Positions 3,488-8,430 of a stretch of DNA of 40,881 nucleotides are shown here, piece after piece (position 1 is the stretch's first letter; every line of letters begins with the position of its first letter). The stretch lies in assembly GCA_902766095.1 (NCBI GenBank), contig CACXCN010000060.1:1-40881 (forward strand). The letters run 5' to 3'. The notes beneath the pieces are model-generated. The model saw only the letters and a list, made by a program, of their open reading frames with translations, did no database searches and was not told the origin of the DNA. The stretch comes from an uncultured Selenomonas sp. GTDB lineage: Bacteria > Bacillota > Negativicutes > Selenomonadales > Selenomonadaceae. The translations under genes were made by a program, and so were the position numbers.

Positions 3488-3541
3488 GCGGCACCTTTAT
3501 CCGCTGGCTTGGGCAAAGATATTATTTTAGGAGATTTATTG

Positions 3542-4732
3542 ATGATAAGTGTAACGAAGTTGCTGTTCGCGCGCGATTATTACGGAGATAAGCTGCGCTA
3601 TACGAAGAATGCCCACAATATGCGCAATGGTGCCGCAGAAGGTGTGGGACCGGTCGTAGTCTGGAACTCGACGAAGACGTGCAATCTGCACTGCATGCAT
3701 TGCTATATGCAGTCGGACGGGCGGAAATACAAGGATGAGCTGACGACGGCCGAGGCGAAGCAGTTTATCGATGACCTGGCCGAGTTCCATGTGCCGGTGC
3801 TGCTGTTTTCGGGCGGCGAGCCGTTGATCCGGCCTGATTTTTTCGAGCTGGCTGAACATGCGGCCCAGCGCGGCGTGCGGCCGACGCTCTCGACGAACGG
3901 TACGCTCATCACGCGCGAGGTGGCGCATCGCATCCATGATATCGGCGTGGGCTATGTGGGCATATCGCTCGATGGTCTCGAGGATGTGAATGACAAGTTC
4001 CGCGGCGTCGCTGGTGCTTACCAGAAAGCGATGGAGGGAATCGAGAACTGTGTGGCCGTGGGGCAGCGGGTCGGTCTGCGCTTCACGATCAACCATCACA
4101 ATATCCAGGAGCTCGACAACATTTTCGACTTCATCGAGGAGCATGAGATCAATCGCGTCTGCTTCTATCATCTGGTCTACTCGGGCCGCGGGTCGGCCAT
4201 GATGGATCAGGATGTCACGCCGGCCGAGTCCCGTCGGGCCATGGATACGATCATCCGCCGCACGCGTGATTTCGAGGAGCGCGGGCTCGAGAAGGAGATC
4301 CTGACCGTCGACAATCACTGCGACGGTGTATATATGTATCTGAAGGCGCTGGCGGCCGGCGATACCGCTGTGGCTGAGCAGATAAAGAAATACATCTCGA
4401 TGAACGGCGGCAACCGCTCGGGCATCGCGTTCGGCGAGGTCGACCCGCAGGGCTATGTGCATCCCGATCAGTTCACGCAGCATCACACGTTCGGCAATGT
4501 GCGCGAGCGGAAATTCGGCGATATATGGTCGGATACATCGGATCCCATCATGGCTGGCCTGAAGAACCGCAAGCCGCTGCTGAAGGGGCGCTGTGCGAGC
4601 TGCCGGTTCCTCAATGAGTGCAACGGCAATTTCCGCACGCGGGCTGAGGCGCGCACCGGCGACTTCTGGGAGAGCGATCCGTCGTGCTATCTGACGGATG
4701 AGGAGATCGGTCTCACGGGAGGTGCGAAATGA
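3542..4732 (+). CDS. nirJ1: Radical SAM/SPASM-like protein, NirJ1/AhbC type
   Basis: This is a 396-residue radical SAM enzyme. The [4Fe-4S]-SAM motif is CNLHCMHC (C47, C51, C54), followed by the SGGEP SAM-binding motif near residue 90. A C-terminal cysteine region (CASCRF..C, then SDPSCYL) could bind another cluster. The N-terminal KLLFARDYYGDKLRYTKN and WNSTKTCNL segments match the NirJ1 family. That family is tied to the siroheme-dependent route to heme or heme d1 (AhbC/AhbD relatives), acting on tetrapyrrole side chains. I chose ATG 3542 because AGGAGA (3529-3534) lies seven bases before it. An upstream in-frame TTG lacks such a site. The stop overlaps the next start (ATGA), implying coupled translation with nirJ2. 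Confidence 0.88.
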   Translation: MISVTKLLFARDYYGDKLRYTKNAHNMRNGAAEGVGPVVVWNSTKTCNLHCMHCYMQSDGRKYKDELTTAEAKQFIDDLAEFHVPVLLFSGGEPLIRPDFFELAEHAAQRGVRPTLSTNGTLITREVAHRIHDIGVGYVGISLDGLEDVNDKFRGVAGAYQKAMEGIENCVAVGQRVGLRFTINHHNIQELDNIFDFIEEHEINRVCFYHLVYSGRGSAMMDQDVTPAESRRAMDTIIRRTRDFEERGLEKEILTVDNHCDGVYMYLKALAAGDTAVAEQIKKYISMNGGNRSGIAFGEVDPQGYVHPDQFTQHHTFGNVRERKFGDIWSDTSDPIMAGLKNRKPLLKGRCASCRFLNECNGNFRTRAEARTGDFWESDPSCYLTDEEIGLTGGAK

Positions 4733-5853
4733 GTGCGGCGGAAGGAATGAAGCATATGCCGTCCGGCGTAGCGACTGCGGCGGCCGGGCCGGACAGCCAT
4801 CCGCACGGTCATGGCGGCGGTCATCCGGGCGGCCATCCCGCCGGCCACGGCGGCCAGATCGGTATCGTCTCCTGGAATACGACGAATGCCTGCAACATGT
4901 ACTGCGCGCATTGCTATCGCGATGCGGGCTGCCAGGCCAGCGATGAGCTGTCGACGGCTGAGGCGAAGGACATGCTCGACGGCATCGCCCGGGCGGGCTT
5001 CCGCATCATGATTTTCTCGGGCGGCGAGCCGCTCATGCGGCCGGATATCCTCGAGCTCGTGCGCTATGCGGCGCATCTCGGCCTCATACCGGTGTTCGGC
5101 ACGAACGGCACGCTCATAACGCCGGACATGGCCGTGGCGCTGAAAGAGGCTGGTGCCAAGGGCATGGGCATATCGCTCGATTCGCTCGATGCAGCGAAGC
5201 ACAACAAGTTCCGCGCTTTCGAGGGGGCCTGGGAAGGGGCCGTGCAGGGCATGAAGAACTGCTGGGCGGCCGGGCTGCCGTTCCAGATCCATACGACTGT
5301 CATGGACTGGAACCAGGCCGAGCTCGAGGCTATCACGGATTTCGCGGTCGAGATAGGGGCTCGGGCCCATCATTTCTTCTTCCTCGTGCCGACGGGCCGC
5401 GCCCGCACCATCGAGGAGGAGAGCCTGCGGGCGGAGCAGTACGAGGATGTCCTCACGCGCATCATGCGCAAGCAGGAGACCGTGCCGATCGAGCTCAAGC
5501 CGACCTGTGCCCCGCAGTTCCTGCGCATAGCGGCCCAGCTCGGCATAAAGACGCGCTTCAGCCGCGGCTGTCTGGCCGGGCTCTCGTACTGCATCATCAG
5601 TCCGCGCGGCAAGGTGCAGCCCTGTGCCTATCTGAAAATGGAGCTCGGCGATGTGCGCGAGAAGCCATTTGATGAGATATGGCGCGACAACGAAGTCCTG
5701 CAGCGGCTGCGCACGCTCGAGTACAGCGGCGGCTGCGGCACGTGCAATTACCGTCGCCTCTGCGGCGGCTGCCGCGCACGCGCGGCCATATATCATGGCG
5801 GCGACTACATGGCGGAGGAGCCCTGGTGCCTCTATCATGGCCGTCGGGGCTGA
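4729..5853 (+). CDS. nirJ2: Radical SAM/SPASM protein, NirJ2/AhbD type, with His-rich N terminus
   Basis: This is a 374-residue radical SAM enzyme paired with nirJ1. The cluster motif is CNMYCAHC (C55, C59, C62), followed by FSGGEPLMRPD. The C-terminal SPASM-type cysteines lie at RGCLAG.SYC, the VQPCAYL segment and GGCGTCNYRRLCGGC. The core from about residue 46 (VSWNTTNACN) fits the NirJ2 family, likely acting late in siroheme-dependent heme synthesis. Residues 1-43 are an extension rich in Gly, Pro and His (His at 9, 24, 26, 28, 32, 36 and 40) that I do not expect in the family. It could bind metal, but that is speculation. The start overlaps the nirJ1 stop. Confidence 0.88.
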   Translation: MSAAEGMKHMPSGVATAAAGPDSHPHGHGGGHPGGHPAGHGGQIGIVSWNTTNACNMYCAHCYRDAGCQASDELSTAEAKDMLDGIARAGFRIMIFSGGEPLMRPDILELVRYAAHLGLIPVFGTNGTLITPDMAVALKEAGAKGMGISLDSLDAAKHNKFRAFEGAWEGAVQGMKNCWAAGLPFQIHTTVMDWNQAELEAITDFAVEIGARAHHFFFLVPTGRARTIEEESLRAEQYEDVLTRIMRKQETVPIELKPTCAPQFLRIAAQLGIKTRFSRGCLAGLSYCIISPRGKVQPCAYLKMELGDVREKPFDEIWRDNEVLQRLRTLEYSGGCGTCNYRRLCGGCRARAAIYHGGDYMAEEPWCLYHGRRG

Positions 5854-5875
5854 TTGACTGTTCAGGTGAAATTTT

Positions 5876-6679
5876 ATGATAAAACTTATACTTTCCGATA
5901 TGGATGGCACGCTGCTCGATGACCAGAGCCGGCTGCCGGCAGGGTTCGATGATATGATGGCGGAGCTGAAGCAGCGCGGTGTGCATTTCGCGCCCTGCTC
6001 AGGCCGGCAGTATTTCTCGCTGCTCGACAGCTTCGCGAAATACAAGGATGAGTTCATGTTCCTGGCGGAGAACGGTACGCTCGTGCGCTATCAGGGGCGG
6101 GAGCTGTTCTCGAGCCCGATGAATGCAGCGCTGGGCCGGCAGGTCCTGCGGGCTGCTGAGCAGCTGCCCGGCATCTCGGAGGTATTCTGCGGCAAGAACA
6201 ATGCGTATGTTCTCGAGCGGCAGATGTCGCCCGTGCTGCAGCAGGAGCTGAACAAATACTATACGCATGCGATGACAGTACCGGATTTCAAGCATATCGA
6301 TGATGAGATGATCAAGGCATCGTTCTATGATGCCAACGGCACGGCGGAGCAGACGATCATGCCGGTGCTCGAGCGATTCCGCGGACCGCTGCAGGTCATC
6401 CTGTCCAGCGCGTACTGGGTCGATGTGATGAATTTCGATATCAATAAAGGCATCGCCGTGCAGCAGGTGCAGCGCCGTCTCGGCATCACGCCGATGGAGT
6501 GCGCGGCCTTCGGCGATTATATGAACGATGCCGAGATGATGAGCTCGGTCTACTATAGTTTCGCCATGGCCAATGCGCATCCGAAGATCAAGGAGCTCGC
6601 GCGCTACAGCACCACGAGCAACAATGAGGGCGGCGTGCTGGCCGGTATCCGCCGGCTCATAGATGCCGGACTTTGCTGA
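5876..6679 (+). CDS. Cof-type HAD-IIB phosphatase
   Basis: This 267-residue haloacid dehalogenase-type phosphatase has motif I SDMDGTLLDD (nucleophile Asp near residue 8), a conserved CSGRQ segment and the C-terminal GDYMND motif that holds magnesium. The IIB cap domain lies between. The family hydrolyses sugar phosphates, flavin phosphates or other small phosphoesters in the cytoplasm, and the substrate cannot be predicted. It starts 22 bases after nirJ2 behind a weak AGGTGA site, so it probably belongs to the same operon. A link to tetrapyrrole synthesis is not implied by the family. Confidence 0.88.
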   Translation: MIKLILSDMDGTLLDDQSRLPAGFDDMMAELKQRGVHFAPCSGRQYFSLLDSFAKYKDEFMFLAENGTLVRYQGRELFSSPMNAALGRQVLRAAEQLPGISEVFCGKNNAYVLERQMSPVLQQELNKYYTHAMTVPDFKHIDDEMIKASFYDANGTAEQTIMPVLERFRGPLQVILSSAYWVDVMNFDINKGIAVQQVQRRLGITPMECAAFGDYMNDAEMMSSVYYSFAMANAHPKIKELARYSTTSNNEGGVLAGIRRLIDAGLC

Positions 6680-6705
6680 TTTGCAGAAGAAAGGAAGCAT
6701 GATTC

Positions 6706-7554
6706 ATGCGGCTCGATTATCACATGCATTTCGAGAAGGGTTCTTATGACAAGCAGTGGGTGGAGGGATTCTTCCGCGCTGCGGCGGAGCGTCATCTCGA
6801 TGAGATCGGCATATCGGAGCACTCGCATACGTTCCCTGAGTTCGAACAGCTCTATTACGACGATCTCGTGCTCGATGACTCCTTTATCGGCAGCTTCCAG
6901 CAGAAATGGCTGAAGTCGAACAAGTTCAAGTACACGTTGGATGAATATTTCGCGTTCATGCGTGGGCTGCAGAAAGACCATGCCGTGAAGATCGGCATCG
7001 AGGTCTGCAATTTCCAGAACCAGGAGCGTGTGGCCTCCATATTGAAGCAGTATCCGTTCGACTACATCATCGGCTCTGTCCACTTCATCAAGGGCTGGGC
7101 CTATGACTCGTCAGAGATCAAGGCGGAGTGGCAGCGTCACGATCTGCATGATATCTACGAGTGGTACACGGAGGAGATAGAGAAGCTGGCCGCCTCTGGT
7201 CTCTACGATGTGCTCGGCCACCCCTACAACATCCGGCTGTTCAAGTTCCTGCCGGATTTCGATGTGCGCCCGTATCTCGAGCGCGCCGTCAAGGCGCTCA
7301 AGCAGGCAGATATGATCGTCGATGTGAATACGGGGACGTATTACCGCTATCCGATCAAGGAGATATCGCCGTATCCGGAGTTCATGAAGCTGGCCGCGCA
7401 GTACGGGCTGCCCATCATCATCGACTCGGATGCCCATCAGCCACAGGATTGCGGAGCCTACCACGATGAGGCCGTCCGCTATGTGCGGGAGTTCGGCTAT
7501 GACAAGACGGTGCAGTTCGAGGGGCGGAAACGCACGATCGTCCCGCTTACCTAA
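6706..7554 (+). CDS. PHP-domain phosphatase, histidinol-phosphatase (HisK/HisJ) type
   Basis: This is a 282-residue PHP-superfamily metal hydrolase. The metal ligands are visible as DYHMHFE near the N terminus, the EHSH motif near residue 45, GSVHF in the middle, LGHPYN, and SDAHQP near the C terminus. The family includes histidinol-phosphate phosphatase, and many members are close relatives with other phosphoester substrates. No his genes are nearby, so the role is open. It follows the HAD gene by 26 bases with an AAGGAA ribosome site and ends the putative operon that starts at nirJ1. Confidence 0.85.
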   Translation: MRLDYHMHFEKGSYDKQWVEGFFRAAAERHLDEIGISEHSHTFPEFEQLYYDDLVLDDSFIGSFQQKWLKSNKFKYTLDEYFAFMRGLQKDHAVKIGIEVCNFQNQERVASILKQYPFDYIIGSVHFIKGWAYDSSEIKAEWQRHDLHDIYEWYTEEIEKLAASGLYDVLGHPYNIRLFKFLPDFDVRPYLERAVKALKQADMIVDVNTGTYYRYPIKEISPYPEFMKLAAQYGLPIIIDSDAHQPQDCGAYHDEAVRYVREFGYDKTVQFEGRKRTIVPLT

Positions 7555-7575
7555 TACTTTGGTGAGTGGGACCCC

Positions 7576-7770
7576 GCGGCAGGCATGGTTCCTTCATTCC
7601 GCTATTGTGGTTTGGCTAAAAGCAAATTTTTCCCAATGAATAGGTCCCTTGAAAGTACTTAAACGCGCTACGCTTGGACGAAAGTACTTTCCGCGGGAAT
7701 GCTTGATAGGGAAAAATTTCCTTTCTTGACGCCAACCCACGACGCTCCATTCCGGAATCATGCCTGCCGC
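7576..7770. repeat. 195-bp imperfect palindrome, ERIC/MITE-like
   Basis: The outer arms are exactly complementary (7576-7587 with 7759-7770). Matching blocks continue inward: AAATTTTTCCC at 7624-7634 with GGGAAAAATTT at 7709-7719, and AAAGTACTT at 7652-7660 facing 7681-7690. Nothing in it codes for a credible protein. The layout resembles short non-autonomous palindromic repeats. No clear target duplication is visible. A smaller hairpin (about 7788-7822) follows it. Confidence 0.75.
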
Positions 7771-7907
7771 TACCTTAGAAATGTAGCAAATGGTGGAAAT
7801 GCGTTGGCATTTTCAACATTTTGTCTTTAGTTGCGGGACGCAATATAAATATTACCGGTTATAATAAATGGAATTTATCGTCTCATAAAAAATGTTCAAA
7901 AATAGTA

Positions 7908-7937
7908 TTGACTAAAGTCCCTGCTGAGTTATATAAT
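7908..7937 (+). promoter_or_regulatory. Promoter of the leader/65-residue gene unit
   Basis: TTGACT (7908-7913), an 18-base spacer and TATAAT (7932-7937) form a strong sigma-A promoter, with AT-rich sequence upstream. Transcription should start near 7944. Confidence 0.85.
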
Positions 7938-7943
7938 GTGTTC

Positions 7944-8183
7944 AAGGTTAAGGGGTTAACCTGAACAGAGAGACAACCCACATGAGTTAGGTCGTGAGGA
8001 TGAACTTAGTCGTTAAGTTTTTCCCAGCAGAATTCGATATAACAAGTGAAAGGGTTGTAAAGAGAAATCCTATAGGATCTTTCCTGGGGGAACGGTGGTA
8101 AAAGCTGTGGAAGGTTTTATCATTGGCGGTTCCGATGAATTCAGGCAAGATGGAACCGCAATTCTAAAAAGGAGAGATTAATC
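7944..8183 (+). promoter_or_regulatory. Long structured 5' leader, type unknown
   Basis: About 240 transcribed bases precede the small gene at 8184. They can form a first hairpin (7946-7951/7956-7961), a long-range helix (ACAACCC 7973-7979 with GGGTTGT 8052-8058) and an 8-bp perfect stem (GCGGTTCC 8126-8133 with GGAACCGC 8152-8159). That last stem ends just before the GGAGAG ribosome site (8171-8176). I cannot match it to a known riboswitch. It could regulate translation or be a functional RNA itself. Confidence 0.55.
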
Positions 8184-8381
8184 ATGAAGATGCAAGTTTA
8201 TTCGCAGTGGATGGAAGATGTCTATGTGCCGGTTCGCGTGAGACAGTTCACCAAGGCTGCCAAGCTCATGGGAAAACACAATTTCAGCGAATATGCCGAT
8301 CTCGGTATGCACACGGAGCATCAGGCTGTAGCCGCATGGCTCGATGAGCATGAGATGGAGGCTGTGGCAGGCATCGCCTGA
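8184..8381 (+). CDS. Small protein of unknown function, 65 residues
   Basis: I do not recognise this protein. It begins at ATG 8184 with a strong AAAAAGGAGAG site seven bases upstream. It is soluble-looking, with no signal peptide, membrane segment or cysteine. The N-terminal half is basic and aromatic (VYSQWMEDVYVPVRVRQF). The C-terminal half is acidic and His-containing and likely helical. It has its own promoter, a roughly 240-base leader and its own terminator, so it is a single-gene unit. It sits directly upstream of hydF but is separated from it by a terminator, so a hydrogenase link is only positional. Confidence 0.8.
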   Translation: MKMQVYSQWMEDVYVPVRVRQFTKAAKLMGKHNFSEYADLGMHTEHQAVAAWLDEHEMEAVAGIA

Positions 8382-8399
8382 AACTAGATATGATTATTT

Positions 8400-8430
8400 G
8401 GCATTGTCTTTGCGGGCAATGCCTTTTTTT
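8400..8430 (+). terminator. Terminator after the 65-residue gene
   Basis: A 7-bp stem GGCATTG/CAATGCC (8400-8406 with 8417-8423) is followed by seven T. Confidence 0.92.

Follow-up and report, generated by a model that had tools for sequence, protein, structure and literature searches.

Promoters of the flagellar sigma factor σ28 have the published consensus TAAAGTTT-n11-GCCGATAA, and in E. coli aer the σ28 transcript starts 6 bp past the -10 octamer (PMC2859248). The SELEX motif of CsrA is RUACARGGAUGU, and the site of RsmE is an ANGGAN hexaloop (PMC7652899), while the flaA mRNA of Campylobacter has been proposed to titrate CsrA (PMC4894983). The flagellin leaders of B. subtilis hag and C. 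jejuni flaA are controlled by CsrA and FliW. In the window, by which we mean the whole stretch of 40,881 nucleotides that was analysed, a gene for a small protein of 65 residues has, to judge from its sequence and from comparison with known σ28-type motifs, two promoters, a housekeeping one at 7908 and one of the σ28 type at 8014, followed by a leader that resembles those of the CsrA/FliW-controlled flagellin genes.

The σ70-type promoter TTGACT-18-TATAAT (7908–7937, forward strand, as all features below unless stated) agrees with the consensus in 11 of 12 positions and deserves the name of a strong promoter that the initial annotation gave it; a near-consensus σ70 promoter is present at the equivalent site in nearly all homologous loci, the best-scoring one being located 190–290 nt upstream of the start in the main copies and about 90–126 nt upstream in most paralogs. 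The CDS (8184–8381) has a well-placed start codon, as was proposed, with the Shine-Dalgarno sequence AAGGAG (8169–8174) about 10 nt 5' of the ATG; this is the second GGA of the leader and reads ACAAGGAG in many relatives. An intrinsic terminator is located at 8400–8430, with the expected stem of 10 bp at 8400–8423 followed by T7. The 244-nt leader is predicted to fold with -76.6 kcal/mol, whereas 200 versions with shuffled dinucleotides average -55.1 ± 4.6 kcal/mol and none of them is as stable (z -4.68). The 240-nt structured leader described earlier is confirmed, but the picture of a single long leader is wrong since a flagellar-type promoter at 8014–8040 splits it, and the 240 nt should instead be read as two stacked 5' ends. 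The first stretch of the σ70 transcript (7944–8013) is unconserved between genera and shows no consistent fold in relatives (mean z -0.44 over 44 leaders). No Rfam family matched the leader at the gathering threshold, and a relaxed E-value gave chance hits only among the 4227 families.

The inferred protein has no match in Pfam or NCBIfam and only noise-level hits in PHROGs, and searches of PDB sequences and with Foldseek gave nothing significant. A literature search for the small-protein family or the leader architecture also found nothing, and both are undescribed in the libraries searched, as the initial annotation had supposed. Homologs are present in 48 of 189 Selenomonadaceae genomes and in 10 of 30 genera besides the window's own. 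A profile search of 380 genomes of the class returned the same genomes and one doubtful interrupted match, and in a 398-genome sample of the phylum all matches fell within Selenomonadaceae; the small protein is real and specific to this lineage. All named relatives that carry it belong to Selenomonas, S. ruminantium and S. montiformis among them. A phage or plasmid origin was considered and rejected, no homolog being found in viral contigs, phages or plasmids. Twelve columns are invariant, including S7, Q8 and W9 (the SQW motif), R18, Q21, A25, A26 and G30 (AA..G), F34, W52 and the C-terminal A65, and in almost every homolog A65 follows V, I or L, with a variable linker upstream of this conserved end. 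The conserved [VIL]A weakly suggests a degradation signal and thus a short-lived protein, a reading that is only suggestive because the tmRNA tag of this genome is ANEDYALAA. The AlphaFold model is β-β-α-α-α with a mean pLDDT of 72 and a pTM of 0.53 and has no significant fold match; a likeness of the N-terminus to the 293-aa DNA-binding regulator 7dwn (PDB; E 0.017 over 26 residues) was too weak to be retained.

Almost every locus with enough flanking sequence has the main copy directly after one and the same PHP-domain gene, and hydF lies downstream in many. Upstream in the window, positions 3509–7554 hold a conserved cluster in which this PHP-domain gene is preceded by a pair of radical SAM/SPASM genes and a gene for a HAD hydrolase; where the flank is long enough, most loci keep the same order ahead of the small gene. 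The gap between the PHP-domain gene and the leader (7575–7780) contains an element of about 200 bp with inverted ends, CGCGGCAGGCATGGTTCC ... GGAATCATGCCTGCCGC, which by eye resembles a small palindromic repeat or MITE, and two adjacent ORFs of 133 and 372 aa at 339–1865 resemble, from their translations only, an IS200/IS605-type TnpA transposase and a TnpB-like protein. Paralogs are found in other neighbourhoods; the one in this genome (C29:13492 of G000; L080:3993–4190) is diverged, with 39% identity and a short leader in which neither a σ28 motif nor a clear GGA hairpin was detected.

The σ28-type (FliA/SigD) promoter TAAGTTTT-N11-TTCGATAT, read in the window as TAAGTTTTTCCCAGCAGAATTCGATAT (8014–8040), combines a -35 of the form TAAA/TAAG with a -10 CGATAW at proper spacing and is matched both by the motif and by a position weight matrix (PWM). 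Its pattern occurs once in the window against 0.01 expected, and the most conserved block of the leader across relatives is TTAAGTTTT-N-CGATAW. A stricter pattern, TTAAGT..CGATAW, has four matches in the whole 2.34-Mb genome and one in the reversed control, and the three genomic matches other than this one precede a flagellin gene (C3), flgE (C11) and a flgG-type gene (C11). Flagellin promoters in the genomes of relatives within Selenomonadaceae show the same motif, and with a PWM built from flagellin promoters of the family only, the window element scores 20.2 (0 of 200 shuffles). The leaders of genera g1, g2, g3, g16, g27 and g28 (g numbers denote genera here and below) score 12.8–21, with a mean of 2.9 and a 99th percentile of 11.5 for shuffles. 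The motif is weak in part of g25, and the PWM found none in the leaders of g10, g14 and g17; since g14, g17 and the part of g25 in question are flagellated, its absence or erosion there counts against the explanation that is preferred below.

Between the σ28 -10 box and the start codon the 44 leaders have a mean fold z of -2.85, with 77% below -2. Three elements recur: P1, which is a long-range helix, the variable hairpin P2, and P3, a hairpin with a GGA loop. In most lineages the 5' strand of P1 begins 0–3 nt past the σ28 -10 box, and the 3' strand ends at or just 5' of the Shine-Dalgarno. In the window species P1 is weak, with several G-U pairs, and shifted about 10 nt downstream: the 5' strand AGGGTTGT (8051–8058), at a position conserved in relatives, is paired with GCAATTCT (8158–8165), which ends 3 nt upstream of AAGGAG. 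The arms covary between genera, as ACTGTCA/TGACAGT in g14, TACTATT/AATAGTA in g27, ACTACT/AGTAGT in g28, TACTTGC/GCAAGTA in g25, CTTGTA/TACAAG in g16 and CCTTGTGAAAC/GTTTCACAAGG in g17. RNAalifold on MAFFT alignments recovered P1 in g16 and g17 and the GGA hairpin alone across all genera, because the register of P1 to the Shine-Dalgarno differs between genera, and an arm-swap test was therefore used. The own arms of 18 representatives score 278 against 217 ± 10.8 for swapped arms, with 0 of 20,000 permutations as high; when each genus group contributes a single sequence, the test gives a median p of 0.00025 and a worst of 0.0055. The helix said at the outset to end just before the ribosome site is thus one that comparison supports by covariation across genera. 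Promoter bases aside, the structured part is invariant at the GGA loop, at the Shine-Dalgarno and at the start. In g3 leaders (L032, L044, L008 and others) an inverted repeat AATAAGTCCAG...CTGGACTTATT and a T run are located directly past the σ70 -10 box; this terminator-like repeat overlaps the σ70 start and is possibly an early attenuator.

P3 is a hairpin of 11 bp at 8093–8125 (8093–8103 with 8115–8125) and carries the conserved GGA loop GTGGAA at 8107–8112. Over 41 distinct hairpins the covariation of its tip is 0.570 against 0.330 ± 0.029 for shuffles, and sliding the arms gives no more than 0.21; both sides have changed in five of six pairs, and 47 cells show a double change. Every loop reads GNGG(A/G)N, the GG being invariant and the A present in at least 90%. 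A stem that varies around a constant GGA in this way is, as far as comparison goes, the signature of a CsrA-type site, and as in CsrA leaders a conserved, covarying hairpin carries a GGA in its apical loop and a second GGA overlaps the Shine-Dalgarno, but the first position is G in 41 of 41 aligned hairpins and not the A of the CsrA hexaloop ANGGAN. The flagellin leaders of the family contain strong NNGGAN hairpins in 17 of 25 cases, nearly all with the canonical C(ANGGAN)G, and also carry a CAAGGAGG ribosome site. That of this genome (L118 6300–8100, minus strand; G000:C3 about 47830–48025) has two hairpins with an AGGGAU hexaloop, together with the ribosome site CAGGGAGG, and looks like a strong CsrA-type leader in a Negativicute. 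The csrA and fliW genes are adjacent on C20 of the genome.

The two protein-bearing genera without detectable CsrA, g10 and g2, have a degenerate hairpin (p 0.0002, from loci that are few, related and not independent, and with g2 genomes that are 76–79% complete). No flagellin, FliW, CsrA or σ28 motif was found in the g10 genomes searched. G204 (locus L060) has an intact hairpin with neither a CsrA nor a FliW match, perhaps owing to an assembly gap. An upstream ORF starting in the GGA loop, where GGAUGG contains AUG, was rejected, since the window, with GGAAGG, has lost the AUG, as have g17 and g25. In g16 and g27 leaders (L050, L064, L004 and others) the loop GGAUGG may alternatively pair with a downstream CCAUC and hide the GGA, and RNAalifold sees two mutually exclusive hairpins around the GGA in g16.

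The explanation that we favour, with a little better than an even chance of being right, is a small-protein gene of the flagellar regulon with two promoters, whose translation is under a CsrA-type structured leader. The σ70 holoenzyme would transcribe the gene at some level and σ28 would add transcription within the flagellar programme. Both transcripts would share a folded 5' UTR with a GGA hexaloop upstream of the GGA-containing Shine-Dalgarno, and CsrA would keep the mRNA silent by bridging from the P3 loop to the ribosome site. When free CsrA falls, with FliW taking CsrA as for flagellin, translation would be released, and P1, ending at the ribosome site, might tune or stage access. That CsrA is the binding protein, that its sign is repression and that the small protein acts in the flagellar programme or responds to it is what we infer from a σ28-type motif, a covarying hairpin, a long-range helix and a conserved protein, all established by comparison, in a genome that has csrA and fliW. 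Against it stands the GNGGAN loop of P3, since the CsrA/RsmE motif and the flagellin hairpins of the family have A first. The intact hairpin of G204 also speaks against it, as does the Shine-Dalgarno of the window species, which a local helix is predicted to close in both transcripts. The protein persists in g10, which is non-flagellated and lacks CsrA, and its job can therefore not be purely flagellar; its task is probably broader than the flagellum.

A rather doubtful alternative is that promoter choice itself is the switch, the σ70 RNA folding a helix onto the ribosome site and being poorly translated, and the σ28 RNA being unable to do so and translated. With the 5' strand of P1 at 0–3 nt past the -10 box in most lineages and a σ28 start about 6 nt past it, as in aer, σ28 transcripts should lack most of that strand, and the predicted openness of the Shine-Dalgarno rises from 0.40 to 0.60 when the 44 leaders are cut at the σ28 start (27 up, 7 down). 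In the window species, however, the P1 strand at about 10 nt past the -10 box lies within the σ28 transcript, and the Shine-Dalgarno, being covered by another helix, a local one, is predicted to remain closed in both transcripts (0.23 and 0.17). This helix has 10 bp in the minimum-energy fold, between the anti-Shine-Dalgarno strand GATCTTTCCT (8076–8085) and 8170–8179, and is unseen in relatives; opening the site would by prediction cost 2.4 kcal/mol in the σ70 RNA and 6.5 kcal/mol in the σ28 RNA. In several lineages P1 merely abuts the Shine-Dalgarno, and the non-flagellated g10 keeps P1 without a σ28 promoter. Since the window species does not show the switch and g10 has the helix alone, promoter choice is kept as a rival. 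In a slightly less probable version the leader would be a new regulatory RNA of this lineage whose fold depends on the sigma factor used: the σ28 start would remove one strand of the helix that otherwise closes the ribosome site, a change from σ70 to σ28 would alter translation along with transcription, and CsrA would act on the shared hairpin. An extra local hairpin of the window species, GCGGTTCCG/TGGAACCGC (8126–8134 with 8151–8159), is likewise unseen in the folds of relatives, and a resemblance of AUGGAACCGC to a T-box bulge was dismissed, this being the unconserved arm of a local hairpin.

Two further readings are both improbable, and about equally so. The protein might bind the GGA hairpin of its own mRNA, as ribosomal proteins do, and the hairpin does accompany it both in orthologs and in paralogs from g27, whose neighbourhoods are different and which have no σ28 motif, but g10 and g2 keep the protein while the hairpin decays, so that it seems to track CsrA and not the protein; the paralog of the same genome is without a clear hairpin, and the PDB and Foldseek searches recognized no known RNA-binding fold. 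The leader might instead serve mainly to titrate CsrA, with the coding part secondary, which is a form that the dual-function RNA first put forward might take. Such a sponge would fit the near-consensus promoters, the GGA hairpins, of which g16 leaders have a second with a GNGGAN loop, for example GUACA[GGGGAU]UGUAC, and the precedent proposed for flaA, but each leader offers one or two hairpins only, position 1 of the loop is suboptimal for CsrA, and the protein is strongly conserved, so that the coding part matters. Least probable is a metabolite riboswitch, one of the roles first put forward: the length and structure of the leader and the helix at its ribosome site would fit, but Rfam gives no known family, the invariants are the GGA loop and the Shine-Dalgarno with no conserved, sequence-rich aptamer core between the helices, and the internal flagellar promoter accounts for the block that is most conserved. 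What the initial annotation made of the leader and the small protein is in sum partly supported, the riboswitch finding no support and the self-contained unit with an undescribed conserved small protein and an undescribed structured leader being upheld.

If the preferred explanation is true, an uncharacterised small protein of about one third of the Selenomonadaceae genera joins the flagellar/CsrA network, and with it a CsrA-type leader whose loop deviates from the canonical ANGGAN. The leader would also offer a compact case in nature for asking whether the choice of promoter can determine translation by way of the leader's fold, and the non-flagellated g10, having the protein without the flagellar promoter or an intact GGA hairpin, is a natural control.

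With translational riboswitch leaders the locus shares a structured leader and alternative folds around the ribosome site, but it differs in having no match among the Rfam families and no conserved sequence like a ligand pocket. Its σ28-type element has the motif of the family's flagellin promoters, including a -35 with TAAG and not the TAAA of the consensus, and unlike known σ28 promoters it sits within the transcribed leader of a σ70 promoter. From the hag and flaA leaders it differs by the GNGGAN loop in place of ANGGAN, by the extra covarying long-range helix, by the σ70 promoter upstream and by a gene for an uncharacterised protein of 64–77 aa and not for flagellin; because the loop departs at one of the defining positions and the binding is putative, we class the leader as a putative CsrA target and not as a proven member. 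By analogy it should nevertheless work like a CsrA/FliW-controlled flagellin leader, being located like these downstream of a flagellar promoter, combining like these a GGA hexaloop hairpin with a GGA in the Shine-Dalgarno, and occurring in a genome where csrA and fliW are present side by side.
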